From Capnocytophaga sp. oral taxon 338 str. F0234 (GTDB lineage: Bacteria > Bacteroidota > Bacteroidia > Flavobacteriales > Flavobacteriaceae), in contig NZ_GL872413.1 of NCBI RefSeq assembly GCF_000192225.1, positions 2,074,567 to 2,138,566 on the forward strand: a stretch of 64,000 nt of DNA. Direction: 5' to 3'. Under the pieces are notes generated by a model. That model did no database searches. It saw nothing but the letters and a program-made list of their open reading frames with translations, and was not told the origin of the DNA. A program made the translations under genes and the position numbers. Shown in pieces: positions 9,054-46,854 of this stretch (its first letter is position 1; the number at the start of each line of letters is the position of its first letter).

Positions 9054-11222
9054 TTACAAATTATTTAAAACGAAATTGGTAAGTTTTTCATACAAATGGC
9101 GACGTGTATTTCCTCCATAAATACCATGATTTCTATCAGGATAAATAGCCCAATCAAAGCTCTTATTATATTGTACGAATGATTCTATTAATCTCATAGA
9201 GTTTTGTACATGTACATTATCATCAGCAGTACCATGTACTAAGAGGAATTTTTTATTCAAATTCTTAGCATAAGTAAGTGGAGAATTATTATCATATCCT
9301 TCTGGGTTCTCTTGAGGTGTTTGCATATATCGTTCTGTGTACACAGTGTCATAGAAGCGCCAATTAGTTACAGGAGCCACTGCTATGGACATTTTAAATA
9401 CCTCACCTCTCAGAATACAGTTAGAAGCCATAAAACCACCAAAACTCCAACCCCAGATTCCTATACGACTCTTATCAATATACTTGTAATTACCTACAAT
9501 CTTAGCAGCTTCTATTTGGTCTTCTAATTCATATTTACCTAACTGTTTATAAGTACATTTTTTGAAAGCCGCTCCTTTGTATCCTGTACCACGTCCATCT
9601 ACACAAAGTACAATATATCCTTTTTGAGCAAGCATGTGATACCAGTAATCATTAGAATTATACCAAGAGTTATATACTTGTTGAGAACCAGGACCTGAAT
9701 ATTGAAACATAAATAATGGGTACTTCTTATTTTCATTAAAGTTAGCAGGCTTAATCATCCAAGCATTAAGCTTATCTCCATTTTTAGTAGTAATTTCAAA
9801 AAATTCCTTTTTACTCAAATCATATTGGGCTACCTTCTTTTCTAAATCATTATTATTAAGAATTTCTTTGATTATTTTACCTGTTTTACTATTATTCAAT
9901 GTATAGATAGGTGGTTTGGCAACACTAGAATATTGATTGATAAACAATGAAAAATCAGGACTAAAAGTTGCATTATTAGTTCCTTTCTCAATAGCTAAGG
10001 CTTTCTTATCTTTACCTGAAAGAGCAATACTATAAATACCACGATTGATAGATCCCGGTTCAGTGGATTGGTAATAAATTTGTTTAGCTTTAGAATTATA
10101 TCCATAATACTCAGTTACCTCCCATTTTCCTTGAGTAATTTGCTTAATTAATTTCCCATTTTTATCATAATGATAAAGATGATTATTTCCATCTTTTTCA
10201 GAAGAAATAATAAAGCTATTATCATCCAAGAAAGTAAGATCATCGGTGATACTTACATAAGCCTTATCTACTTCATGATATACAGATTTATATTTTTTAG
10301 TAGAAGCATCTACAAAGATGATGTTAAAATCATTCTGATGCCTATTTAGAGTTTGTACACTAAGAATATTTGCTTCTTTTGTCCATTGCAATCGTGGAAT
10401 ATAGTAAGCATCCAAAGGAATTCGTGTAGCCTTTCCTCCCTTTACATCATACAAATGAAGACTTACTACAGAATTTTTTTCACCTGCCTTTGGATATTTG
10501 AAAGTGTCCTCAGTAGGGTATAAGGTTGTTCCATAGATGTCCATAGAGAACTCTGGCACTTCATGTTCATCAAAACGAATATAAGCTAATTGTGTTCCAT
10601 CAGCATTCCAATCAAAAGTTCTTACAATAGCAAATTCTTCTTCATATACCCAGTCGCTGGTACCATTAATAATTTTGTTCTTCTCTCCATCAAAAGTTAC
10701 TTGTTGTTCTCTTTTAGATTGAGTATCATATATATAGATGTTATTCTTAAATACATAGGCTATTTTATCACCTTTAGGGGAGAAAAGAGGTTCTTGTATT
10801 TTTTTATCTGTTAGCTTAGTAAGTTCTTGTTTTTTAAGGTCAAAGATATAAAAATCAGCAAAAAAAGAACGTCTAAAAATTGGTTCACTATTGGTTGCTA
10901 TAAGAAGCTTATCTTCTTGTTTGTTGAAAGTATAACTATCCACCCGCTTAATTTCTGAAAAATTCTTAGTATCAAAAAGCGTTTTTTCTTTTTCCAAAGT
11001 AGAAAAGTTATACAAATCAATGGTATAATTTGAGTTACTACGATCATAATTCAGCACTGTATACTGGTTGGTATTCTTCAATGCTGATAAATTAGACATT
11101 CTCTTGGAAGAAAAAGTATAATTTGTCCAAATGTCTTCCAGAGTGATCATTTTCTTTTGAGCACTCACATTCAATGAAATAGCCATTAAAAACAGCCATA
11201 AATAACAGATTTTAGTTCTCAT
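9054..11222 (-). CDS. Dipeptidyl peptidase IV-like serine peptidase (S9B)
   Basis: This exported S9-family peptidase would release N-terminal dipeptides, typically X-Pro or X-Ala, outside the inner membrane. I choose the start MRTKICYLWLFLMAISLNVSAQ because it gives a proper signal peptide; the longer frame adds nine residues. The roughly 720-residue protein has an N-terminal eight-blade propeller with the substrate-binding pair in DWVYEEEFA, then an alpha/beta hydrolase domain with nucleophile GWSFGG, acid TADDNVH and histidine DRNHGIYGG, all intact. The DWVYEEE motif is the DPP IV Glu-Glu pair, which favours S9B over other S9 enzymes. The downstream gene encodes a peptide importer, consistent with peptide nutrition. 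Confidence 0.93.
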   Translation of the reverse strand: MRTKICYLWLFLMAISLNVSAQKKMITLEDIWTNYTFSSKRMSNLSALKNTNQYTVLNYDRSNSNYTIDLYNFSTLEKEKTLFDTKNFSEIKRVDSYTFNKQEDKLLIATNSEPIFRRSFFADFYIFDLKKQELTKLTDKKIQEPLFSPKGDKIAYVFKNNIYIYDTQSKREQQVTFDGEKNKIINGTSDWVYEEEFAIVRTFDWNADGTQLAYIRFDEHEVPEFSMDIYGTTLYPTEDTFKYPKAGEKNSVVSLHLYDVKGGKATRIPLDAYYIPRLQWTKEANILSVQTLNRHQNDFNIIFVDASTKKYKSVYHEVDKAYVSITDDLTFLDDNSFIISSEKDGNNHLYHYDKNGKLIKQITQGKWEVTEYYGYNSKAKQIYYQSTEPGSINRGIYSIALSGKDKKALAIEKGTNNATFSPDFSLFINQYSSVAKPPIYTLNNSKTGKIIKEILNNNDLEKKVAQYDLSKKEFFEITTKNGDKLNAWMIKPANFNENKKYPLFMFQYSGPGSQQVYNSWYNSNDYWYHMLAQKGYIVLCVDGRGTGYKGAAFKKCTYKQLGKYELEDQIEAAKIVGNYKYIDKSRIGIWGWSFGGFMASNCILRGEVFKMSIAVAPVTNWRFYDTVYTERYMQTPQENPEGYDNNSPLTYAKNLNKKFLLVHGTADDNVHVQNSMRLIESFVQYNKSFDWAIYPDRNHGIYGGNTRRHLYEKLTNFVLNNL

Positions 11223-11379
11223 TTTTAGAATATTTTTTGTAGAATACAATTTTACGTTTTTTTTTAATATAACAGTATTTTTTATGCTTTTTTTAATATT
11301 ATTAAGTAAAAACCTTGTTTAAAATAATACAATTATCTAATTATCAGATACATATAATAAAACGAACAATTTTTTAGTA

Positions 11380-35720: not shown

Positions 35721-36173
35721 CTATTTAGTTTCAGCGACTACCTCAAAAGGGAGCGCAACGATTACCTCTCTGTGTAAGCGTATAGAGGCTTCATATTTAC
35801 CTGTTTGTTTGATATTGCCTCCTGCTATATAGATATATTTTTTATCTACTTGGTGACCTGCCTTAAGCAATTCTTGAGCAATATCATCATGATTTACTGA
35901 ACCAAATAACTTATTTCCAGCACCTGCTTTAGCAAATATTTTAACTTCCAATTGTTGGATAGCTTTAGCAAGTTCCTTAGCATCTTCAATAATTTTCTTT
36001 TCCTTAAAGGCTCTTTGCTTTAGGTTCTCTGCCAATACTTTTTTAGCAGCGGGAGTCGCTAGAATAGCAAATCCTTGTGGAATAAGATAATTGCGCCCAT
36101 ATCCGTTCTTTACGGTCACTATATCGTCCTTAAAACCTAAGTTAGGGACATCATTTTTAAGTATAATTTCCAT
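35721..36173 (-). CDS. rplI: 50S ribosomal protein L9
   Basis: Ribosomal large-subunit protein bL9, 150 residues. The N-terminal domain shows IILKNDVPNLGFKDDIVTVKNGYGRNYLIPQGFA, joined by a long helix to a C-terminal domain. It is the last gene of the usual rpsF-rpsR-rplI operon, 17 bases after rpsR, and is followed by a strong terminator. Confidence 0.98.
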   Translation of the reverse strand: MEIILKNDVPNLGFKDDIVTVKNGYGRNYLIPQGFAILATPAAKKVLAENLKQRAFKEKKIIEDAKELAKAIQQLEVKIFAKAGAGNKLFGSVNHDDIAQELLKAGHQVDKKYIYIAGGNIKQTGKYEASIRLHREVIVALPFEVVAETK

Positions 36174-36190
36174 TGATTCCTTTCGTTTAA

Positions 36191-36484
36191 TTATTTTAAT
36201 AAATCAGCTACATAAGGCAGTAGTGCTAAGTGACGAGCTCTCTTAACAGCTACTGCTATCTTTCGTTGAAATTTCAACGAAGTACCTGTAATACGGCGAG
36301 GTAATAACTTTCCTTGCTCATTAATGAATTTCAATAAGAAATCAGGGTCTTTATAATCAATATATTTGATACCTAATTTTTTGAAACGGCAATATTTTTT
36401 GTTCTTATTGGTATCTATATTCAGTGGAGTAAGATATCTGATATCTCCTTCTTTTTTTCCTTTTGCTTGTTGTTCGATAGACAT
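36191..36484 (-). CDS. rpsR: 30S ribosomal protein S18
   Basis: Ribosomal protein bS18, 97 residues. The core ([49 protein letters not shown]) is intact. The N-terminus carries a roughly 20-residue basic extension ([18 protein letters not shown]). It binds S6 on the small-subunit platform. The stop of rpsF lies two bases before its start, so translation is coupled. Confidence 0.98.
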
Positions 36485-36486
36485 TT

Positions 36487-36828
36487 TTAGGCTTTTTTAC
36501 TGTTTAACTTTGCTCTTCTTTTTTCAGCCCAAGCGACGGCATCTTTGTCGAGCTTTACGGTAAGATAGCGCATTACACGCTCATCTCTTCTGAATTCTAC
36601 TTCAAAACTCTCAATAATATCTCCAGGAGCTTTGAATTCAAACAAGTGATAAAATCCACTTTTTTTGTTTTGAATGGAGTAGGCTAATTTCTTTAAACCC
36701 CAATCTTCTTTTGCTACCATTTCAGCTCCCTTTGAGGTTAAGAAATTTTCAAATTTCTCAACTGCTTCCTTTATCTGTGCTTCAGATAAAACGGGATTCA
36801 AAATGAAAACAGTTTCGTAATGATTCAT
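36487..36828 (-). CDS. rpsF: 30S ribosomal protein S6
   Basis: Ribosomal protein bS6, 113 residues from [16 protein letters not shown]. It has the ferredoxin-like fold and the [23 protein letters not shown] motif. The longer nine-residue start would lie between the promoter and this ATG and is less conserved. The promoter -7 box is inside a perfect palindrome at 36849-36881, leaving a leader of only about 20 bases, so the S6:S18-binding leader structure known from some bacteria seems absent. Confidence 0.97.
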
Positions 36829-36848
36829 AAAACTTTTATTTAAATTGA

Positions 36849-36881
36849 GGTGCAAAGGTAAAACATTTTTACCTTTGCACC
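36849..36881. promoter_or_regulatory. 33-bp perfect palindrome holding the rpsF -7 box
   Basis: GGTGCAAAGGTAAAA (36849-36863) and its exact complement TTTTACCTTTGCACC (36867-36881) flank CAT. Each arm contains TACCTTTG, a consensus -7 box: one points toward rpsF (minus strand, 25 bases before the ATG), the other away from it. It may be an operator, a hairpin at the transcript start, or symmetrical promoters. Confidence 0.8.
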
Positions 36882-36933
36882 AAATAATATTTACTATTTT
36901 TTATATCAGGTTTTTTTCTACCTCAAATACCTT

Positions 36934-38178
36934 TTATTGCTTTGGACTATTACCATTTTCTGTATTTGTAGTATTTTCTGTTTGATTTGTTTCTGTAGGT
37001 TGCTCTGAATTAGCAGGAATAATGAGATCCTTTTTCTTTACCTTCAGTTTACCTCTGGATTCTTTCTGGAGTTTCTCAAGAGTTTGGCTAATAAGTTCTT
37101 TGGTTACAAAATCTATTTCCTTAGCTCCATAAGCGCGCTGTAGTGCACGAAAAGCCTTTTGGGGTTCTTGTACACGGAGGTAATAATCTCCTTCTAAATA
37201 ATCAGGCAAAGCGGTATCCTTATAATAAGGCTTGATATACTTGGACAATATTGGTAATGATTCAAAATCCGCATTCTTAAGAATTGCTGCATAAATTGCC
37301 TTTACATCTCCTAAAAGAGGAAACTTATCTATACCATACAAATCCTTAATAGTCTTATACTTATCTTGCAAATATTGAGTGGTATTACTTTGTACTTTCA
37401 CAACCTTTTCTGCATATTCTTTCATGGTAATAGGTCGGTAGTGTTCAAAGAAAAGATTAAGTGCCTCAGGAATTCCTGAGGCTGCTACAGCACTAGGAGA
37501 AACTTTTGGAAAATCCTCAGAGAAATAGAAACTATGTGTAAGCTCCTTAGTACGCATCAGTTTGTCCAGATCTACTATTTTCTTAACTTTCGCTTTATCA
37601 TCATTCTGTGTCCAAGCCAAATAGTAGAATATAGGTATTTTAAAAGAATCCAACTGATTAGGTAATGGTTCTATTATTTTTTCCATCAAATTAGGATTCA
37701 GTGATATATAAGCATTAAATAGAGAATTCTCTTTTAGTAAATAATAATTAAGGAAGTTTCCTGCTTCACCATCCCCTAAAATTCCCTTAAAAGTATTTAC
37801 AGAATACTTACTTTGTACTCTTGGAATAACCACCTGTCCTACAAATTCAAAGAAATTAGCTGTGTCATTAAATGGTACTCCTGCCTCTTCTGGAATAGTA
37901 ACATCATCTTCAGTATTATAGATTCCTACTATAATACAGGGGGGGACTTCTCCTGTATGGGAAAAATAGCGCATACTGCTGACCGTTGGCTCCAAAAGCC
38001 GATCCGCATTAAGTACTACAAAAAGAGGGTACTGTTCTTTCTTATCATAACCTTCTGGAAGTACTACAGTAACCTTTCGTGTTCCATCTAATGATTTTGA
38101 ACTTAAATTCTCTGAGGTGATTTGCGCCTGTACACTTGAGGCAAAAATGCCTAAAAGAAATAGAATAAACTTCTTCAT
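36934..38178 (-). CDS. Esterase-like alpha/beta-hydrolase protein lacking the catalytic triad
   Basis: An exported 414-residue protein (signal peptide from MKKFILFLLGIFASSVQAQ) with the fold of the putative-esterase (Fes/EstD-like) family. Where the family has GxSxGG at the nucleophile elbow, this protein reads LGDGEAGNF, without serine. The usual C-terminal His-x-Ser segment reads KVSPSAVAASG, without histidine. It should therefore be non-hydrolytic, perhaps a binding protein. A helical, TPR-like region and a Glu/Thr/Asn-rich tail follow. The stop of folA is at 38180, so it is co-transcribed with folA. Confidence 0.85.
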   Translation of the reverse strand: MKKFILFLLGIFASSVQAQITSENLSSKSLDGTRKVTVVLPEGYDKKEQYPLFVVLNADRLLEPTVSSMRYFSHTGEVPPCIIVGIYNTEDDVTIPEEAGVPFNDTANFFEFVGQVVIPRVQSKYSVNTFKGILGDGEAGNFLNYYLLKENSLFNAYISLNPNLMEKIIEPLPNQLDSFKIPIFYYLAWTQNDDKAKVKKIVDLDKLMRTKELTHSFYFSEDFPKVSPSAVAASGIPEALNLFFEHYRPITMKEYAEKVVKVQSNTTQYLQDKYKTIKDLYGIDKFPLLGDVKAIYAAILKNADFESLPILSKYIKPYYKDTALPDYLEGDYYLRVQEPQKAFRALQRAYGAKEIDFVTKELISQTLEKLQKESRGKLKVKKKDLIIPANSEQPTETNQTENTTNTENGNSPKQ

Positions 38179-38179
38179 C

Positions 38180-38674
38180 TTACAATTGTTTATGAATATA
38201 TGTTTCAAAATAAAAGTCATAAAGATGTCTCTCATCCTTGGAATGGAAAACTTGCTTTACGAGTTCCCATTGAGAGGTATCTATCTGTGGGAAAAAAACA
38301 TCTGCTTGCAAGTGTGCCTGCACACGTGTAAGCTCCAATGTTGTTGCCAGGGAGATTGTCTGTCTATAAATTTCTCCTCCTCCTATAACAAAGGGGGTAT
38401 TATCTCTTTCATAAGCTTGAAGGATAGCCTCTTCCACAGAGGAGACTATCACACAATGTTCTCTTGGAAGGAGTTCTTCCTTAGATACAATAATATGAGT
38501 GCGATTAGGAAGCATTCTGGGCAAGGACTCCCAGGTCCTTCTTCCCATAATTACACAATGTCCCATCGTCAATTGTTTAAAATGCAGAAAATCATCAGGA
38601 AGATGCCACAGTAGTTGATTATCCTTCCCAATTCCATTTTCCAAATCCAATGCTGCAATAAGTGTTAAAGACAT
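38180..38674 (-). CDS. folA: Dihydrofolate reductase
   Basis: NADPH-dependent reduction of dihydrofolate to tetrahydrofolate, 164 residues. Motifs are LIAALDLENGIGKDNQLLWHLPDDFLHFK with the active-site acid (Asp at LPDD) and VIMGRRTWESLP, and a later GGGEIYRQ. Length is typical. It has its own -7 box 20 bases upstream and is followed without a gap by the esterase-like gene. Confidence 0.97.
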   Translation of the reverse strand: MSLTLIAALDLENGIGKDNQLLWHLPDDFLHFKQLTMGHCVIMGRRTWESLPRMLPNRTHIIVSKEELLPREHCVIVSSVEEAILQAYERDNTPFVIGGGEIYRQTISLATTLELTRVQAHLQADVFFPQIDTSQWELVKQVFHSKDERHLYDFYFETYIHKQL

Positions 38675-38694
38675 TATCCCTATTTTAAACGAGG

Positions 38695-38702
38695 CAAAAG
38701 TA
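38695..38702 (-). promoter_or_regulatory. -7 box for folA
   Basis: On the minus strand TACTTTTG fits the consensus and lies 20 bases before the folA ATG. Confidence 0.6.
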
Positions 38703-38829
38703 CAATTATTTATTTATTTTTAACGGTTTAAAATGTTAAATTTTATTCATCTAACAGACTTTAAAAAATTTCATTATTCTCCCGATATCAAGGAATTCTT
38801 TCTTCCTTAAAAATATTTTCACAAAGTTA

Positions 38830-38860
38830 TTGTAAATATCATTTTCCTTTTATAATTTTG
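38830..38860 (+). promoter_or_regulatory. Promoter of the putative metal-uptake locus
   Basis: TTG (38830-38832), 20 bases, TAATTTTG (38853-38860), then the ATG at 38870 only nine bases on. No obvious Fur or Zur box is recognised, but the flank is AT-rich and could hide one. Confidence 0.6.
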
Positions 38861-38869
38861 TGCTCTCAA

Positions 38870-39226
38870 ATGAAGAGGAAAAAGTTACATATTCACTTTT
38901 CTACTTTTGTATTGCTTTTATGCATCTTGAAAGTAGCATTCCCTGTGGGTGAGTTCTTCCATAATCACCACTCAGATAGTGAGCTATGTACCCATCTTCA
39001 TGGGAAAAAGTGTAACCACAATATGCATTTTTCTGCTGTAGAAAAACATCATGATTGTATACTCTTCCAGTTACACCAATCCTTTGTACTCCCTCTTTTC
39101 GTATATCATCTGCTTTCTACAAATGATATAGTCGCCTTTTTTTTTAACGAGAAAAGTACAGAACTTCCCTCCATGGAGACCTTCTCAAGAGGTCCTCCGC
39201 CATTATTTTCTTTATTCTTTGTTTAA
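38870..39226 (+). CDS. Histidine-rich small membrane-anchored protein
   Basis: A 118-residue protein with an N-terminal hydrophobic helix (about 10-28) that is either a signal or an anchor. A short His/Cys cluster follows: FFHNHHSDSELCTHLHGKKC then NHNMHF and EKHHDC (about 29-64), giving about a dozen histidines and three cysteines within some 40 residues. The remainder is hydrophobic. Such composition indicates transition-metal binding outside the inner membrane (Zn or Cu, inference). It heads the block containing a ZnuD-like receptor. Starting at the TTG four codons earlier would overlap the -7 box. Confidence 0.75.
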   Translation: MKRKKLHIHFSTFVLLLCILKVAFPVGEFFHNHHSDSELCTHLHGKKCNHNMHFSAVEKHHDCILFQLHQSFVLPLFVYHLLSTNDIVAFFFNEKSTELPSMETFSRGPPPLFSLFFV

Positions 39227-39347
39227 AATATTTTCAGACAAATAGTTAGTTCTATTTGTGTAGAAAAGTATATGTGTGCCTATACTATATTTAGACATTT
39301 ATTCCAAAATTATTAATCATATCCGTCGTTTATTACAAGCATATACT

Positions 39348-41654
39348 ATGCGAAAGATTTTATGTCTTTTCCTTTTTGTAAGCGTTTTTTCCTTATATGG
39401 ACAAGAAACACTAAATCTAAAAATAGAAGACAACCAAAAACAACCCTTACCAAGTGCTGTTGTGCACTTTATTGGGAAGCATTTTGTGAGTGATGCTAAG
39501 GGGCAAGTAAGTATTCCTAAGCTCTCCAAGGGAAAGTTTCCTATCAAGGTAAGCTATTTAGGATTTTTAGATTATGAAGCCTTCATTACCATTCCTGCCT
39601 CAAATCCTTATATAATTACTATGCAGGAAGAAGTGAATCAACTCTCAGGTACGACTCTTGTGGGAAGAGTTACTCAACCGGTGAAAGTTGTAACTGATAT
39701 TGACAAGTCTCAGCTTCAGCAGAAATCCGGGGAAGAACTTGCTAAAGTGCTTACCTCTGTTGCAGGAATTTCCATGATACAGACAGGAGCTACTATTGCC
39801 AAACCTGTCATTCATGGTTTGCATAGCAATCGTATTCTTATCCTTAATAATGAAGTACGTCAAGAAGGGCAACAGTGGGGCGCAGACCATGCTCCTGAAA
39901 TAGACCCCTCTGTAGCGGACAAGATTACGGTTGTAAAAGGAGCTGACGCTGTACGTTATGGTTCAGATGCTCTAGGAGGTGTAATCATTATCGCTCCTAA
40001 CAAACTTCCTTATGGTGATGGCTTACATGGAGAACTCTCTCCCTCTTTTGCCTCCAACGGGCGAAAGTTAGCGACTACACTAAAGGTAGAAAGTTCCGTG
40101 CCTAAGCTCCACCACTGGGCATGGCGTATACAGGGAACTCTCAAACGCTCTGGCGATATCCATACAGCCGATTATGTAGTGAACAATACTGCAGCCCGTG
40201 AAGCCGATTTCTCAGTAGCAACAGGAATACAGAAAGAGAAAGGATCTGCAGAACTTTTCTATAGTAGGTATGAAAATGAAAGTGGCGTGTTCTATGGTTC
40301 TCATATAGGAAACTTAGATGATTTATTAGCTCGTTTTGAACTTGGTCGCCCTTTGACCACTTATCCTTTTTCCTATAGTATAGAAGCCCCTAAACAAAAG
40401 GTAATACATCATCTCCTTAAGACTAAAGCATTCTATTTTCCTTCTTTCGGAGGAAAACTAACTGTACAATATGCCTTCCAAAAGGACATCCGTCAGGAGT
40501 TCAGTGTACGCAGGTTGAACAGAACCCGTATTCCTGCCTTAAATATGAAACTCACCAGCCACTTAATGGAGGCTTTCTGGGAGAGTATAGATAATCCTCG
40601 CTGGAAAACTATGGCAGGAGGTAGTTTCTCTCATCAAGACAACTATAACCAGCCAGGTACAGGAGTAGTTCCTGTAATTCCCAATTTTGCTTCTATTGGC
40701 TATGGATTTTTCGCTATTGAGAAGTATCATTCAGGAAAATGGAATGCGGAGGCAGGACTTCGGTATGATTACAAATACCTTAATGCCGATGGCTATGATA
40801 TGTTCTCACAACATTACGGAGGAGAACATAATTTCCATAACATCACCTACTCCTTAGGGGGTGCATGGGAGGCAAACCCACACTTATCACTGAGTAGTGA
40901 TATAGGCGTAGCTTGGCGAGCTCCTCAGGTGAATGAACTCTACAGTAGTGGTTTGCACCACGGAGCAGGTACTTATGATTTAGGAGATGCTTCACTAAAC
41001 CCTGAGACAGGAGTCAAATGGATTACTTCTCTTAAGTATAATAACCAAGAGAAGGGAAGATTTCTAAACTTGGATATATATGCTCAGGTGATTAAGGGTT
41101 ACATCTATGATTATCCTACGGGAGAAACACGTACCTTATTCTCTGGAGTATATCCCATCTTCCAATATACCCAAGCCGATGCTTTTTTCCGTGGAACTGA
41201 CCTAGAGGCTTCCCTAAGGTTAGCCCAATGGGGAGCTTGCTCCAATGGCTTGTCATACAGATTAAATGGATCAGTAGTTTTTGCTAATGAATTCAAGACA
41301 AAGCGATATTTCCCTTTCATTCCAGCACCTAAATTCTCCCAATACTTGGAGTGGAAGAATGCTCCTAAAGGACTTTTCCAGAGTCTTGAAGCAAGTATAG
41401 GACATACCTTTGTGGCTAAGCAAACACGCTTTGAACCTTCACAAGAACTGGTACCTACTACCCCTGATGCTTATCACTTATTTGAGGCTTCTGTAGGAGG
41501 TACTATTACTGTAGGAGAGCGACAAACCCTTTCGGTAAGGCTTTCCGCAGAGAACCTACTTAACCAACTTTACAAAGAGTATACCAATCGTTTCCGCTAT
41601 TACGCGCATGACTTAGGTAGAAATATACACCTACGGTTAAGTTATAATTTTTAA
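39348..41654 (+). CDS. TonB-dependent receptor, ZnuD-like metal receptor
   Basis: A 768-residue outer-membrane receptor from MRKILCLFLFVSVFSLYGQ. It has a signal peptide, a carboxypeptidase-regulatory-like domain (about 20-95), a plug (about 110-215) with KPVIHGLHSNRILILNNEV and WGADHAPEIDPSVADKITVVKG, and a 22-strand-type barrel ending in the canonical aromatic strand NIHLRLSYNF. The DHAPEIDP segment and the preceding His-containing motif resemble ZnuD-type zinc (or related metal) receptors. Loops contain further histidines (SGLHHGAG, GGEHNFHNIT). With the His-rich protein before it and two lipoproteins after it, metal uptake is the best reading. Confidence 0.88.
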   Translation: MRKILCLFLFVSVFSLYGQETLNLKIEDNQKQPLPSAVVHFIGKHFVSDAKGQVSIPKLSKGKFPIKVSYLGFLDYEAFITIPASNPYIITMQEEVNQLSGTTLVGRVTQPVKVVTDIDKSQLQQKSGEELAKVLTSVAGISMIQTGATIAKPVIHGLHSNRILILNNEVRQEGQQWGADHAPEIDPSVADKITVVKGADAVRYGSDALGGVIIIAPNKLPYGDGLHGELSPSFASNGRKLATTLKVESSVPKLHHWAWRIQGTLKRSGDIHTADYVVNNTAAREADFSVATGIQKEKGSAELFYSRYENESGVFYGSHIGNLDDLLARFELGRPLTTYPFSYSIEAPKQKVIHHLLKTKAFYFPSFGGKLTVQYAFQKDIRQEFSVRRLNRTRIPALNMKLTSHLMEAFWESIDNPRWKTMAGGSFSHQDNYNQPGTGVVPVIPNFASIGYGFFAIEKYHSGKWNAEAGLRYDYKYLNADGYDMFSQHYGGEHNFHNITYSLGGAWEANPHLSLSSDIGVAWRAPQVNELYSSGLHHGAGTYDLGDASLNPETGVKWITSLKYNNQEKGRFLNLDIYAQVIKGYIYDYPTGETRTLFSGVYPIFQYTQADAFFRGTDLEASLRLAQWGACSNGLSYRLNGSVVFANEFKTKRYFPFIPAPKFSQYLEWKNAPKGLFQSLEASIGHTFVAKQTRFEPSQELVPTTPDAYHLFEASVGGTITVGERQTLSVRLSAENLLNQLYKEYTNRFRYYAHDLGRNIHLRLSYNF

Positions 41655-41686
41655 AATCAATGCAAATATTAATTTTTTTTTCAAAT

Positions 41687-42415
41687 ATGAAAATCATATC
41701 TAATTTTTTAAAAACAACCTTACTTTTAGCCTCCATAGGACTTTTTTTGGTAAGTTGTAGCAAACCTTCTTCCTCCACAGATGAAACCAAGGATAGAGGT
41801 CACGAAATGCCTGATAAAGTGGTATTTATTGTTACCAATATGGCTACAAAAGAACAGCAAAAACGGGAAGCAAACAAATCTCCCAAAGGAATACAATATG
41901 ATATCTCCGACCCCATTGTCTGGAAATCAGGACAGGATTATCTATTTGAAATCATTTATTATAACAATGGTAGGCGATTGAATGGAGAATTCGTAACTGA
42001 GAAAATGGCTCCTATTCATCAGCATTTTTTTGAACTCTACCAAGGAGAATATCCTAAAAATACAGAAGGAAGAGAAAAAATGGTCTCCACTATGAATAGT
42101 TTAGTAAGCTATAAATATCAAGATACAAACCCTGAAAATGCTTACCTGGGAAACGAAGGAGTAAGCTTACTTAAACGCACTTGGGATAAAAAGAATCCTC
42201 AAGAGAATGATCCTATAGGATTGAAGGGCATTTTCACTATAAATCAAAATCCTACTGAAGGTGATTTTAGGCTACGTATCAAGCTGGCTCACTTTTTAGT
42301 AGCCAACAAGTTAGAACCAAGTACGGGAAAAATACGTCCTTACAATGTGATGATATATTCCAATGCTTTTGTTTTGGATTCCAATATGGAACTTTTAATC
42401 AAACTTATAAAATAA
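41687..42415 (+). CDS. Lipoprotein A of the metal-uptake locus
   Basis: A roughly 242-residue lipoprotein (MKIISNFLKTTLLLASIGLFLVSCSK, lipobox LVSC). I choose this start over one nine codons earlier because of the signal peptide. The mature domain includes APIHQHFFELYQG, SYKYQDTNPENAYL and DPIGLKGIFTINQNPTEGDFRLRI. It aligns with the next lipoprotein (APNHYQFFF, SYKYRDTEPEELYI, EHIGLKGFFDV), so the two are tandem paralogues. The AP-x-H-x-x-FF histidine motif could bind metal. It starts 32 bases after the receptor stop, so it is co-transcribed and probably surface- or periplasm-exposed next to it. Family not recognised by name. Confidence 0.8.
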   Translation: MKIISNFLKTTLLLASIGLFLVSCSKPSSSTDETKDRGHEMPDKVVFIVTNMATKEQQKREANKSPKGIQYDISDPIVWKSGQDYLFEIIYYNNGRRLNGEFVTEKMAPIHQHFFELYQGEYPKNTEGREKMVSTMNSLVSYKYQDTNPENAYLGNEGVSLLKRTWDKKNPQENDPIGLKGIFTINQNPTEGDFRLRIKLAHFLVANKLEPSTGKIRPYNVMIYSNAFVLDSNMELLIKLIK

Positions 42416-42442
42416 TTTATTTGTCATTTAAATATTTATAAC

Positions 42443-43342
42443 ATGAAAAGAATTATCAATCTTTTAAAAATTAGTTTATTACTACTTATAGGAATTGCTG
42501 TTTCTTCTTGTAGCAAAGATAATAACAAAGAAGTACCCAATCCTAATCCCAATCCTACTCCTACTCCTACTCCTAAGACTATTGAATGGAGTAAGTTAGA
42601 GGTACGCTTCTCACAGGGACATTCACACGGTTATTTCCATGGAGACCCTGATTATCCTGTAAAACATCTCAAAAGAGTACAACGTTTTTATTTTGAGAAT
42701 AAAGATGGAAAAATAACTCCCTCCTCTGATAATCCCACTGCTATCCGCTGGATGGGAAGTGATGTGCCTGGACAATCTTTGTCTCTATCAGGCGTAGAAT
42801 TCATTTTCTATGACAAAGATGGTAAACGAGTGAATAGCCAACTCTCCACTGGAGATGCACCTAATCATTATCAGTTTTTCTTTATTGCAGAGAATTTTGT
42901 AGGTGTGGCAGGAAATACTAATATTCCCTCTCAAAAGGAGGCTTTCTCCTATAAATATAGGGATACAGAGCCCGAGGAACTCTATATTCGAGGAGGAAAG
43001 CATGATAAGGATCCCAATGCCAAAAAAGGAGTTTTGAGAAAAGAACACATAGGTCTTAAAGGATTCTTTGATGTAAGAAAATCATACATTAATTTTGATA
43101 TGAGAATTGTTTTAGGATATTTTAATACTAAGCCTAATCATTTGCCTTATGATACACTTCCTAAGGATAAAGTATTTGAACTTACTATTCCTATACACAT
43201 CTACACCGATCGATTAGCAGAAAATAAAATAGTGGAGGATGCTCTAAGAGAATACAAAGTACCTAAAGAAGAAATAGAAAAAGACCTAAATGACATTCTA
43301 AGTTCTAGTCTTGATGCAGAAAGTAGCAGTATCTTTCTATAA
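42443..43342 (+). CDS. Lipoprotein B of the metal-uptake locus
   Basis: A 299-residue lipoprotein (MKRIINLLKISLLLLIGIAVSSCSK). After the lipid cysteine there is a Pro/Asn/Thr linker (PNPNPNPTPTPTPK, about 32-45). A His-rich start of the mature domain (FSQGHSHGYFHGDPDYPVKH) follows. The domain shared with lipoprotein A comes next (APNHYQFFF, SYKYRDTEPEELYI, EHIGLKGFFDV), then an Asp/Glu-rich tail. The added HSHGYFHG cluster suggests stronger metal binding than A. It is the last gene of the block and is followed by a strong terminator. Confidence 0.8.
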   Translation: MKRIINLLKISLLLLIGIAVSSCSKDNNKEVPNPNPNPTPTPTPKTIEWSKLEVRFSQGHSHGYFHGDPDYPVKHLKRVQRFYFENKDGKITPSSDNPTAIRWMGSDVPGQSLSLSGVEFIFYDKDGKRVNSQLSTGDAPNHYQFFFIAENFVGVAGNTNIPSQKEAFSYKYRDTEPEELYIRGGKHDKDPNAKKGVLRKEHIGLKGFFDVRKSYINFDMRIVLGYFNTKPNHLPYDTLPKDKVFELTIPIHIYTDRLAENKIVEDALREYKVPKEEIEKDLNDILSSSLDAESSSIFL

Positions 43343-43368
43343 AGAGACCTAATAATTAATATTATCTA

Positions 43369-43403
43369 AAGAGGGAATGAAAAATAAATTTATTCCCTCT
43401 TTA
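43369..43403 (+). terminator. Terminator of the metal-uptake locus
   Basis: AAAGAGGGAAT and ATTCCCTCTTT form a perfect 11-bp stem with a 13-base loop, followed by T-rich DNA. It closes the block before rmlA. Confidence 0.8.
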
Positions 43404-43475
43404 TTATTTCTAAAAATTCTTTAATTTTATTACTAAAAAAAACATAAAATCATATAGTGATTCATTTTTTTATTT

Positions 43476-43483
43476 TACTTTTG
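43476..43483 (+). promoter_or_regulatory. -7 box for the rmlACDB operon
   Basis: TACTTTTG matches the consensus and ends 13 bases before the rmlA ATG at 43497. Confidence 0.6.
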
Positions 43484-43496
43484 CGAAAAAATTACT

Positions 43497-44369
43497 ATGA
43501 AAGGGATTATTCTAGCGGGTGGTTCAGGAACAAGGCTTTATCCTATTACTAAAGGAGTCTCTAAGCAATTACTTCCTATTTATGATAAACCAATGATTTA
43601 CTATCCGTTATCGGTACTCATGCTTTCCGGTATTCGGGATATTCTCATTATCACTACACCAGAGGATGCCTCTGCCTTTCACCGCCTACTGGGGAATGGG
43701 AGTCAATTCGGAATCCATCTTTCGTATGCTGTACAGCCTTCTCCCGATGGCTTAGCACAAGCCTTTATTATCGGAGAGGAATTTATCAAAGAGGACGATG
43801 TGTGTCTTATCTTAGGTGATAACATCTTCTATGGGCAACATTTCTCCCAGATGCTCTCCCATGCGGTAGCCAATGTTGAGCAGGAGCAAAAAGCTACAGT
43901 TTTCGGCTATTATGTAAAAGACCCAGAGCGCTATGGAGTAGCTGAGTTTGATACAGGAGGAAATGTCCTTTCTATAGAGGAAAAACCTAAGCATCCTAAA
44001 TCCAATTATGCTATAGTCGGTTTATATTTTTACCCAAATAAGGTTATTGAAATTGCCAAAAGTATAAAACCTTCAGCGCGAGGCGAACTGGAGATTACTT
44101 CAGTGAATCAAGAATTTCTACAAGCAAAAGAACTTAAGGTACAACTTTTAGGACGTGGTTTTGCTTGGTTAGATACAGGGACTCATGAGTCCCTAACCGA
44201 AGCTACCAACTTCGTAGAGACTTTAGAAAAACGGCAAGGACTGAAAATATCCTGTTTGGAGGAAATTGCCTATCATCGCGGTTGGATAAGCAAAGAGAAA
44301 GTCCAAGAAATAGGTAAAGAACTTTCTAAAAATGGATATGGACAATATCTTTTGGACTTAATACAATAA
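43497..44369 (+). CDS. rmlA: Glucose-1-phosphate thymidylyltransferase
   Basis: First enzyme of dTDP-L-rhamnose synthesis: joins glucose-1-phosphate and dTTP to give dTDP-glucose. The 290-residue cytosolic protein has the nucleotidyltransferase signature [20 protein letters not shown] and metal site ILGDNIFYG. Further features are [15 protein letters not shown] and [13 protein letters not shown]. It opens a compact four-gene operon, rmlA-rmlC-rmlD-rmlB, with gaps of 9-12 bases. Confidence 0.97.
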
Positions 44370-44379
44370 ATCTATTAAC

Positions 44380-44946
44380 ATGAATGTAATAAAAACAGCT
44401 ATAGAAGGAGTTGTAATTATAGAACCCAAAGTATTCCCTGATGAAAGAGGCTACTTCTTTGAATCTTTTTCTCAAAAGAAGTTTGTAGAGAATATCTGTA
44501 ATACTACTTTTGTACAAGATAATGAATCCAAATCCTCCTATGGAGTGCTAAGAGGGTTACATTTTCAAAGAGCCCCTTATACTCAGTCCAAATTAGTCCG
44601 TGTTGTACAAGGTGTTGTATGGGATATAGCTGTGGATATTCGTAAAGGTTCCCCTACCTTTGGTAAATATATAGGTGTGGAGCTTACCGAGGAAAACAAG
44701 CGTCAGCTTTTCATTCCACGAGGTTTTGCACATGGTTTTGTAGTACTAAGCCCTGAGGCTATATTCCAGTACAAATGTGATGCTTTCTATGCTCCTACTC
44801 ACGAGGGAGGAGTTTTATGGAATGATCCTGAAATAGGTATAGATTGGAGAATTCCTCCTCAGGACATTATTCTTTCCCAAAAAGATGAACATAACCCCCT
44901 TTTACATGAGGTCTGGGAATTTGATTATAAAGAGAAATTATATTAA
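44380..44946 (+). CDS. rmlC: dTDP-4-dehydrorhamnose 3,5-epimerase
   Basis: Epimerises the dTDP-4-keto-6-deoxyglucose intermediate at C3 and C5. The 188-residue cupin has VFPDERGYFFESFSQKKF, the catalytic His in LRGLHFQRAP and PRGFAHGFVVLSPEA. Length and motifs are standard. Second gene of the operon. Confidence 0.97.
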   Translation: MNVIKTAIEGVVIIEPKVFPDERGYFFESFSQKKFVENICNTTFVQDNESKSSYGVLRGLHFQRAPYTQSKLVRVVQGVVWDIAVDIRKGSPTFGKYIGVELTEENKRQLFIPRGFAHGFVVLSPEAIFQYKCDAFYAPTHEGGVLWNDPEIGIDWRIPPQDIILSQKDEHNPLLHEVWEFDYKEKLY

Positions 44947-44958
44947 AACATAAATTAT

Positions 44959-45822
44959 ATGAAAAATATACTCATTACAGGTGCCAGCGGACAACTCGCT
45001 ATGGAAATCAAACAAGAATTAAATAACTCTGTTTCTAATAATTACATTTTTACAACTAAAAATGAATTAGATGTAACAGATGCTGATAAGGTAAATTCTT
45101 TCTTTAAGAAAAATGCTGTAGAACTGGTTATCAATTGTGCTGCTTATACAAATGTAAATGGTTCTGAGATAGATAAGGAAACCGCAAACTTAGTCAATCA
45201 CTTAGCGGTAAAGAATATTGCTAATGCTTGTACTGAACAAGGAAGTGCCTGTATTCATCTCTCTACCGATTATGTATTTGCAGGAGAGAAGAATACTCCT
45301 TATGCAGAAACTGATGCTACTTCTCCCTTAGGGGCTTATGGACAAACAAAACTATTAGGAGAGAGTGCCTTACAACATTCAGATGTTGATTTTCTCATTC
45401 TAAGAACTTCTTGGTTATATTCTGCCTTTGGAAATAATTTTGTAAAGAATATCCTACGTATCAGTAAAGAGCGTAAGGAAATTAAAGTTGTATTTGACCA
45501 AGTAAGTACACCTACCTATGCTAAGGATTTAGCACGATTTATTATTTTTGTTATTGAAAACAAGCTCTATCGCGGTAGACAAGATGTATACCACTTCTCC
45601 AACGAAGGAGTATGCTCTTGGTATGATTTTGCTGTAGAAATCCTCAAACTTGCTGGCAGTGATTGTAAAGTAATTCCTTGTAGGACAGAGGACTTCCCTA
45701 CTCCTGCAGCACGTCCTGCTTACTCAGTATTGGATAAGGCAAAAGTAAAAACAGATTTTAGCTTCCCCATCCCTTACTGGAGAGATTCTTTGGTATCCCT
45801 AATGACCAATTATAAACTTTAG
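44959..45822 (+). CDS. rmlD: dTDP-4-dehydrorhamnose reductase
   Basis: NAD(P)H-dependent last step of dTDP-L-rhamnose synthesis. The 287-residue SDR protein has the Rossmann motif GASGQLAME, the STDYVFAG segment and the catalytic YGQTKLLGE (YxxxK). Third gene of the operon. Confidence 0.96.
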   Translation: MKNILITGASGQLAMEIKQELNNSVSNNYIFTTKNELDVTDADKVNSFFKKNAVELVINCAAYTNVNGSEIDKETANLVNHLAVKNIANACTEQGSACIHLSTDYVFAGEKNTPYAETDATSPLGAYGQTKLLGESALQHSDVDFLILRTSWLYSAFGNNFVKNILRISKERKEIKVVFDQVSTPTYAKDLARFIIFVIENKLYRGRQDVYHFSNEGVCSWYDFAVEILKLAGSDCKVIPCRTEDFPTPAARPAYSVLDKAKVKTDFSFPIPYWRDSLVSLMTNYKL

Positions 45823-45831
45823 CCCTTATAG

Positions 45832-46854
45832 ATGAAAAATATTTTAATTACAGGAGGAGCTGGCTTCATTGGAGCCAACTTCGTCGTGTACTTTGCCAAA
45901 AAATATCCCAACTATCATTTGGTAAACTTAGATAAACTCACTTATGCAGGGGATTTAGGCAATCTTACTGAAGTAGAAAAAGCTCCCAATTATACTTTTG
46001 TACAAGGTGATATCTGTAATAGGAAACTTATTGAAGATCTCTTTGAGAAATATCATTTTCAAGGAGTGATTCATTTTGCTGCTGAATCCCATGTAGATAA
46101 CTCTATTGTTAATCCTGATACCTTCATCACCACCAATATACACGGTACTTTTACCCTCTTAGATGTAGCTCGCCACCACTGGATGGAGGCGCCTTTTGTA
46201 GTCAAAGAAGGCTACAAAGAAGCGCGTTTTCACCATATTTCCACGGATGAAGTATATGGTTCCTTAGGAGAAACTGGCTTATTCACCGAGGCTACTGCGT
46301 ATGCTCCTAATTCTCCTTATAGTGCTTCCAAAGCCTCTTCTGATATGATTGTGCGGGCTTACTTTCATACCTATGGATTGAATGTAACTACTTCCAATTG
46401 TTCTAATAATTATGGACCAAAACAACATAAAGAAAAACTGATTCCTACTATTATACGAAAGGCATTACAAGGAGAAACCATTCCTATTTATGGAGATGGA
46501 AAGAATATAAGGGATTGGTTATATGTTCTTGATCATTGTACAGGAATTGACTTGGTATTCCATAAGGGGAAAGCAGGAGAAACTTATAACATAGGAGGAC
46601 GCAACGAGCGTAATAACCTCTTTATCGCAGGATACATCTGTGAGTTGTTAGACCAAAAGCGCCCACTTCCCAAAGGAAAATCCCACAAAGAACTCATCAC
46701 TTTCGTACAAGATCGTGCCGGACATGACCGCAGATATGCCATTGATGCTACTAAAATAGAAAACCAGTTAGGTTGGCATGCACAAGAGAACTTCGAGACG
46801 GGAATTGTGAAAACTATTGATTGGTATCTCACTTATTTTAAAGATTTGTTGTAG
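45832..46854 (+). CDS. rmlB: dTDP-glucose 4,6-dehydratase
   Basis: Converts dTDP-glucose to the 4-keto-6-deoxy sugar. The 340-residue extended SDR has GGAGFIGANFV, HFAAESHVDNSI, the STDEVYGSLGE catalytic segment and YSASKASSDM (YxxxK). Although chemically the second step, it is encoded last. The dTDP-rhamnose product feeds surface polysaccharide, possibly together with the dehydrogenase at the start of the window. Confidence 0.97.
   Translation: MKNILITGGAGFIGANFVVYFAKKYPNYHLVNLDKLTYAGDLGNLTEVEKAPNYTFVQGDICNRKLIEDLFEKYHFQGVIHFAAESHVDNSIVNPDTFITTNIHGTFTLLDVARHHWMEAPFVVKEGYKEARFHHISTDEVYGSLGETGLFTEATAYAPNSPYSASKASSDMIVRAYFHTYGLNVTTSNCSNNYGPKQHKEKLIPTIIRKALQGETIPIYGDGKNIRDWLYVLDHCTGIDLVFHKGKAGETYNIGGRNERNNLFIAGYICELLDQKRPLPKGKSHKELITFVQDRAGHDRRYAIDATKIENQLGWHAQENFETGIVKTIDWYLTYFKDLL

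Follow-up and report, generated by a model that had tools for sequence, protein, structure and literature searches.

Bacteroidota pair TonB-dependent receptors with surface lipoproteins, as in SusCD. Surface B12 lipoproteins paired with TonB receptors have also been described in this phylum (PMC6143338). In Bordetella pertussis, a TonB receptor is controlled by the upstream open reading frame (uORF) CruR, whose RAPP motif is reported to arrest the ribosome until a CXXC motif, 45 residues away, perceives copper; CruR is described there as the first gene of the receptor operon and as predicted to be poorly structured (PMC9426467). According to PMC12992588, arrest can be brought about by RAPP as well as RGPP in several settings, arrest at RGPP being the most stable among such motifs. 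The same source reports that both are avoided in proteomes, RGPP being on average the rarest tetrapeptide across ten major bacterial groups, and that both occur near the C-terminus of small exported proteins encoded before TonB receptors across Gram-negatives. The zinc ligands given for the receptor ZnuD are D99, H100, E340 and H499 (PMC4557270). Here we describe a locus of Capnocytophaga sp. oral taxon 338 str. F0234 (assembly GCF_000192225.1; genome of 2.5 Mb) that shares features with these systems. It lies in a 64,000-nucleotide stretch of contig NZ_GL872413.1 (positions 2,074,567 to 2,138,566; hereafter the window) and comprises genes for a small His/Cys-rich protein, a ZnuD-like receptor and two lipoproteins, A and B (LPA and LPB).

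We propose, from sequence comparison and analogy, that the four genes probably form one metal-import operon under nascent-peptide control, with beta-sandwich lipoproteins as partners of the receptor. Systems of this kind are already known, and we regard the lipoproteins and the His-rich sensor found here as new variants. The main change to an earlier, sequence-only reading of the window is that the small His-rich protein probably acts as the operon's sensor and does not carry metal.

A conserved receptor unit

The sequence-only reading had described a self-contained unit of four co-directional genes with a promoter and a terminator. ORF calls, the sequence itself and a stem search located all of these parts, together with the DHAPEIDP, His/Cys-cluster and HSHGYFHG features it had singled out. 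Lipoproteins A and B are paralogous, as it had stated (35% identity over 124 residues, E 2.8e-8). It had also suggested a check of whether the lipoproteins co-occur with the receptor, and they do so in all 20 Capnocytophaga genomes (the source genome included), where the receptor gene and at least one related lipoprotein gene are adjacent throughout, and at nine of nine loci outside the genus. In neighbourhood maps of the 19 other genomes (20 loci), one order, small ORF, receptor and one to several lipoproteins, is kept while the flanking genes change between species, in agreement with a self-contained unit. Genome G164 carries two receptor copies. Small ORF, receptor and lipoprotein gene form a conserved unit.

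The nine loci outside the genus come from a scan based on two short peptide patterns, which returned 22 loci (14 of them Capnocytophaga), and from a phylum profile search. They belong to Oceanihabitans, Winogradskyella, Myroides, Riemerella columbina, Cloacibacterium, Bergeyella cardium, Hoylesella oralis, Porphyromonas pasteri and one more genome. At each of them the lipoprotein gene lies 3' of a homologous receptor gene on the same strand, as the immediate next gene in eight and behind one 109-aa gene in Myroides. A small ORF with an R-x-PP end (HSPP in Hoylesella) precedes the receptor in seven. The linkage of receptor and lipoprotein is beyond chance, and operons of this kind are spread across Bacteroidota. 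Among 395 phylum genomes, the receptor profile matched 135 at E ≤ 1e-80 and the lipoprotein profile 2 at E ≤ 1e-5; a search of 149 family genomes with LPA found matches in 2, both Capnocytophaga.

At two loci from Oceanihabitans and Winogradskyella (L112:105-6876 and L113:105-6876), the module and a divergent Fur-family gene have identical coordinates and encode near-identical proteins, after which the flanks diverge. This looks like a recent horizontal transfer of the module. The gap at these loci contains the palindrome TCGCGATAATTTATTGCGA. In Riemerella columbina, a second related receptor lies nearby (L115:9923-12766) and has its own small ORF ending in RAPP.

The receptor and its metal

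The receptor exceeds the Pfam cut-offs for plug (PF07715) and barrel (PF00593), and an N-terminal carboxypeptidase-regulatory-like domain falls just under its cut-off. Its nearest PDB structure by sequence is ZnuD, with single-sequence and profile queries alike, which bears out the earlier description of the receptor as ZnuD-like. In the alignment, where PDB chain and PMC4557270 numbering differ by an offset of 14, D180 (22 of 25 receptors, by eye) falls on ZnuD D99, H181 (25/25) on H100 and H537 (21/25) on H499. Since three of the four ZnuD zinc ligands are aligned, zinc is the best guess for the metal. The receptor probably imports a metal ion, and we predict, with less assurance, that this ion is zinc. 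The genome contains two ZIP-family genes, candidates for an inner-membrane step, and one Fur-family gene.

Alternatively, the receptor might import haem or other chelated iron, in which case the lipoproteins would be haemophore-like partners that bind haem or haemoproteins. The top NCBIfam score belongs to a haem-receptor model (122.6 bits, versus 91.5 of 950 bits for the ZnuD model NF038289; both are far below their cut-offs). The plug has a His, the loop residue H538 (25/25) aligns with chain residue 603, a His, of the haem receptor HasR, and the lipoproteins are His-rich. The best solved match is nevertheless ZnuD, and the small ORF bears Cys/His metal-ion ligands. The receptor also has ELYxxGxHx(8)G[ND]xxLxxE in common with ZnuD, standing in place of the NPNL box of haem receptors. 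We therefore regard haem as an unlikely substrate.

The small His/Cys-rich ORF

Alignment A1 comprises 20 copies of the small ORF, which come from 19 genomes and include, in addition, the second copy in G164. The invariant residues of this alignment are H31, H33, C40, C48, H50, H53, C63, R107, P109 and P110. Between C63 and the C-terminus, where only F72, R107, P109 and P110 are invariant, conservation is highest over R[G/A]PP: RGPP or RAPP is present in all 20 copies, encoded by varying codons and followed by 1-13 residues. The aligned Cys is separated from the Arg of the motif by 43 residues in 17 copies and by 44 in three (counted by hand to the aligned Cys in L089 and L090, both of which carry a later Cys). 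The predicted fold is poor (pLDDT 57, from 20 sequences) and largely unstructured, with an N-terminal helix.

We surveyed 403 ORFs (129,155 aa) of the window and 28 loci, taking those of 60 aa or more that start with ATG and thinning out overlapping ones. This set contains R[G/A]PP 24 times, always in small ORFs of this type, namely the 20 aligned copies, a tandem second small ORF in L089, two from Riemerella and one from Cloacibacterium. The other 379 ORFs contain none where 0.93 is expected by composition; this zero alone is weak, and the weight lies with the restriction of all 24 matches to receptor-linked small ORFs. A further 20 small ORFs were examined, 19 of them from other genera, together with L105, the other copy in G164, which has an RSPP end and a CxxC. 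Nineteen of the 20 have a Cys 40-52 residues ahead of the motif (range searched 38-52), and 12 have a CxxC at about the same spacing, so that the His-rich form without CxxC looks like a variant of the genus.

A CruR-like arrest uORF accounts better than a chaperone for the R[G/A]PP end, the fixed Cys spacing, the N-terminal helix and the poor fold. We consider the small ORF to be, with high probability, a metal-sensing translation-arrest uORF and not a metal carrier. Because placement, motif, spacing, helix and poor fold match CruR but CXXC and DUF2946 do not, we suggest that it works like CruR and do not call it DUF2946.

Such a module could serve copper, like CruR-CrtA of Bordetella. The experimentally tested metal-sensing uORF of this design responds to copper, and the CxxC of 12 of the 20 further copies is in keeping with that metal. 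Within A1, however, 19 of the 20 copies, the window's included, are missing CxxC at that place (the one that has it is L089), and the receptor contains no more than two Cys, neither of them well conserved. Copper-related R[A/G]PP uORFs are moreover reported as missing from Bacteroidota in the available part of PMC12992588. Copper thus seems a doubtful candidate. Least probable is the role that the sequence-only reading had assigned to the small protein, an exported metal chaperone or buffer that acts as a protein and in which R[G/A]PP is incidental or structural: the product is His/Cys-rich with an N-terminal helix and its gene always adjoins the receptor within the genus, yet its most conserved stretch after C63 is a motif that bacterial proteomes avoid, its Cys-motif spacing is near-constant and it is predicted to be largely unstructured.

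In L089, a second small ORF (10915-11274, minus strand) with CxxC and a RAPP end lies directly before the His-type ORF, which gives two tandem proposed arrest uORFs for one receptor. In Pfam, the small ORF also matched an apicomplexan microprotein (18.4 of 27 bits), which we attribute to chance.

Lipoproteins A and B

The sequence-only reading could not name the lipoprotein family, and neither LPA nor LPB reaches a Pfam or NCBIfam cut-off. No Pfam family matches more than 2 of the 32 members of lipoprotein alignment A2, the only strong match being DUF4625 in the fusion L099, and no NCBIfam family matches more than 3 of the 37 members of alignment A6 (best E 0.0015). Searches of PDB sequences gave nothing better than E 0.034. 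Invariant features of A2 include R129, N131, QxFF, YxDTxPE and GLKGxF, the first Y of YxDTxPE being invariant or nearly so. The predicted structure of LPB (pLDDT 86.8, pTM 0.79) consists of strands and two C-terminal helices and is read as a beta-sandwich; a PDB fold search with this model returned 0 matches at E ≤ 0.001, with weak immunoglobulin-like matches only.

To place these proteins in the phylum, we took the 29 top-scoring receptor loci from the 135 genomes that the phylum search had matched. The gene after the receptor encodes a short lipoprotein in 24 and an LP-type lipoprotein in one (L132). In L158 a short lipoprotein follows as an ORF without a clear start, and no lipoprotein was seen after the receptor in L137, L144 and L149. 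Of 28 such next genes, 14 are matched by the LP model at E ≤ 0.01, most of them weakly. When the profile of A6 was compared with that of A8, an alignment of 25 short lipoproteins (24 loci and L106), the result was a probability of 99 and E 6e-18 over 185 columns, signal peptides included; A8 has no common match in Pfam. In our reading, the lipoproteins of the genus are elaborated forms within a receptor-linked family that spans the phylum. Two natural fusions were identified, one of LPA and LPB types (L101:4979-6466, minus strand, 495 aa) and one of DUF4625 and LPB (L099:9400-10626, minus strand, 408 aa).

The surface-export signal (LES) of Capnocytophaga is given as C-x-K-(D/E)2, and K-D alone is reported to be insufficient for surface export in a test protein (PMC5080379). 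Of 47 cassette lipoproteins, 46 have K at +3, 43 also have an acid at +4 and 14 have the full K-(D/E)2. Both window lipoproteins have an incomplete signal (K-D-N in LPB, K-P-S in LPA). Surface exposure is thus likely for some cassette lipoproteins and no more than possible for LPA and LPB. As to the earlier suggestion that A and B are partners of the receptor, the part that stands is that they travel with it in 20 of 20 genus genomes; that they are its direct partners we judge fairly likely.

Porphyromonas pasteri has three consecutive LP-type lipoproteins after the receptor (L130:3723-7050). The C-terminus of LPB-type proteins (window 43334-43339 and A6) is formed by an aromatic residue with Met or Leu in 22 of 28 rows, as judged by eye and with distant genera among them.

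Locus layout and upstream region

The coordinates of the features are given in Table 1. We take TTG and TAATTTTG upstream of the small ORF to be the -33 and -7 elements of its promoter. ATG 38870 is favoured as the start of the small ORF, as a TTG at 38858 falls within the -7 element. In 9 of the 12 small-ORF copies that start with ATG, the window among them, TAnnTTTG ends 8-13 nt before this codon (chance expectation 0.05 per 60 nt), and thus the transcript probably starts almost at the ATG. Eight copies from another branch of the genus have a possible TTG start 54-75 nt farther upstream, which would make their ATG-based rows too short. A general sigma-70 scan showed no excess of promoter-like sites (31 vs 34.2 in shuffles). 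LPA has an additional in-frame ATG at 41660; its queries and alignment rows were started one codon late (41690 instead of 41687).

Table 1. Features of the four-gene locus, in window coordinates
Feature	Position	Strand	Basis or remark
Bacteroidota-type promoter: TTG 38830-38832 (inferred -33) and TAATTTTG 38853-38860 (-7)	38830..38860	+	
Small His/Cys-rich ORF, 118 aa, ATG start	38870..39226	+	putative; proposed metal-sensing arrest peptide (uORF)
His/Cys cluster, small-ORF residues 31-63, proposed nascent-chain metal sensor	38960..39058	+	invariant A1 columns
RGPP codons, residues 107-110, proposed arrest site	39188..39199	+	R[G/A]PP in 20/20 copies
8-bp RNA hairpin between small ORF and receptor	39238..39259	+	possible attenuation part, weak evidence
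ZnuD-like TonB-dependent receptor, 768 aa	39348..41654	+	Pfam, NCBIfam, PDB comparison
Receptor plug D180-H181	39885..39890	+	aligned to ZnuD zinc ligands D99-H100
Receptor H537-H538	40956..40961	+	aligned to ZnuD H499 and HasR chain residue 603, respectively
Lipoprotein A (LPA), 242 aa	41687..42415	+	without GHxHG motif; HQHFF kept
Lipoprotein B (LPB), 299 aa	42443..43342	+	GHSHGYFHG motif; predicted beta-sandwich and two C-terminal helices
Intrinsic terminator, 15-pair stem	43367..43403	+	

The upstream regions of 29 loci were compared by eye for Zur or Fur boxes, which had been suggested earlier as a feature to look for. No shared box or palindrome was seen upstream in the genus. Fur-family neighbours were found only in L112 and L113 (28 wider loci, two Fur queries), and the protein there is below every NCBIfam cut-off. 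We suggest that the uORF may substitute for Zur in this genus.

The gaps between small ORF and receptor contain stems in several species, with weak statistics. Mean z was -1.79 for 22 gaps vs -1.31 for 60 control stretches (one-sided p 0.011), with L112 and L113 near-identical and four gaps of <50 nt omitted, so RNA structure in the gap is suggestive only. For the gap in the window, z was -2.42 over its first 70 nt and -0.81 for a 150-nt stretch, and Rfam gave 0 matches within 36000-46500. In two species, tandem repeats with periods of 21, 42, 63 and 84 bp lie in the gaps before or behind the receptor, at L099:11500-11856, L099:14288-14489 and L104:7858-8065, with a common 21-bp unit that contains CATCCCT..AGGGAAA.

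Discussion

We propose that, when metal is scarce, the ribosome would stall at RGPP and the downstream genes would be expressed. Metal would bind the nascent His/Cys cluster, then just outside the exit tunnel, the stall would be released and expression would fall; this release step is modelled on copper and CruR of Bordetella pertussis. The receptor would import the metal ion, with zinc as the best guess and, less surely, copper or haem. Lipoproteins A and B, presumably in the outer membrane and possibly exposed at the surface, would hold the metal or pass it to the receptor. We speculate, as a rather unlikely extension, that the module is phylum-wide: a His/Cys peptide, its Cys replaced by His relative to a copper sensor, would sense zinc, arrest at RGPP and control a zinc receptor together with new lid-like surface lipoproteins, whose capture of zinc might draw on zinc-withholding proteins of the host, and would be the stand-in for Zur in the genus.

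Several observations weigh against the proposed operon and its assignment to zinc, in addition to the haem-receptor score and the HasR alignment above. The window small ORF has no CXXC (C63, no C66) and no DUF2946 match at E ≤ 1 in Pfam, a search that covered this row of A1, and its low pLDDT may be due in part to the shallow alignment of 20 sequences. An R/H-x-PP ORF lies ≤1.5 kb upstream in only 14 of the 29 best receptor loci, against a control of 3 in 233 reverse-strand ORFs of 60-219 aa, and no such small ORF was seen upstream of the receptor in Bergeyella or Porphyromonas (L125, L130). The alignment did not reach a counterpart of ZnuD E340, including a sub-alignment of 16 of the 25 receptors, and a genome search gave no ZnuA match. 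To these are added the incomplete export signals of LPA and LPB. The NCBIfam Mfa1 fimbria model matches 9 of the 25 A8 lipoproteins weakly (best E 8.3e-6), which could mean another role.

A literature search, judged mostly by titles, found no paper combining ZnuD, Bacteroidetes, lipoprotein and zinc and no title on such a module; no paper naming DUF4625 was found. In the available part of a Riemerella study, TonB receptors are named for zinc uptake as candidates only (PMC11960050). If the proposal is true, arrest peptides exert metal control not just for copper in Bordetella but also for another metal in another phylum, and an unnamed lipoprotein family gains a testable function.

Comparison with known systems

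The locus resembles the operon of CruR (DUF2946, PF11162) and BfrG/CrtA, as described in PMC9426467 and PMC12914433, in that a small exported ORF with metal ligands comes first, ends in a C-terminal R[A/G]PP at a spacing of about 45 residues and is followed by a TonB-dependent receptor. It differs in that the window ORF has a His/Cys cluster instead of CXXC or a DUF2946 match, stalling here being inferred from sequence, in that the receptor is ZnuD-like, and in that the genes that follow encode lipoproteins and not a protein with four predicted transmembrane segments. With ZnuD of Neisseria (PDB 4rdr, PMC4557270), the window protein has in common that it is a TonB-dependent receptor with a plug D-H and one loop His that align with reported zinc ligands. 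Unlike ZnuD, it scores under the NCBIfam ZnuD cut-off, has an extra N-terminal domain and comes with putative lipoprotein partners, whereas none is described for ZnuD in the available text of PMC4557270.

As in SusCD and the B12 lipoprotein pairs, the window receptor is encoded beside a lipoprotein partner; unlike those partners, the window lipoproteins are below all Pfam and NCBIfam cut-offs, and the proposed ligand is a metal ion. Neither of them matches DUF4625 (PF15418), and among A2 only 1 of 32 members, the fusion L099, does so. LPA and LPB are nonetheless like the DUF4625 lipoproteins in their setting, as the latter follow the same receptor in relatives (for example L087, L090 and L104), and one of them is fused to an LPB-type domain (L099).

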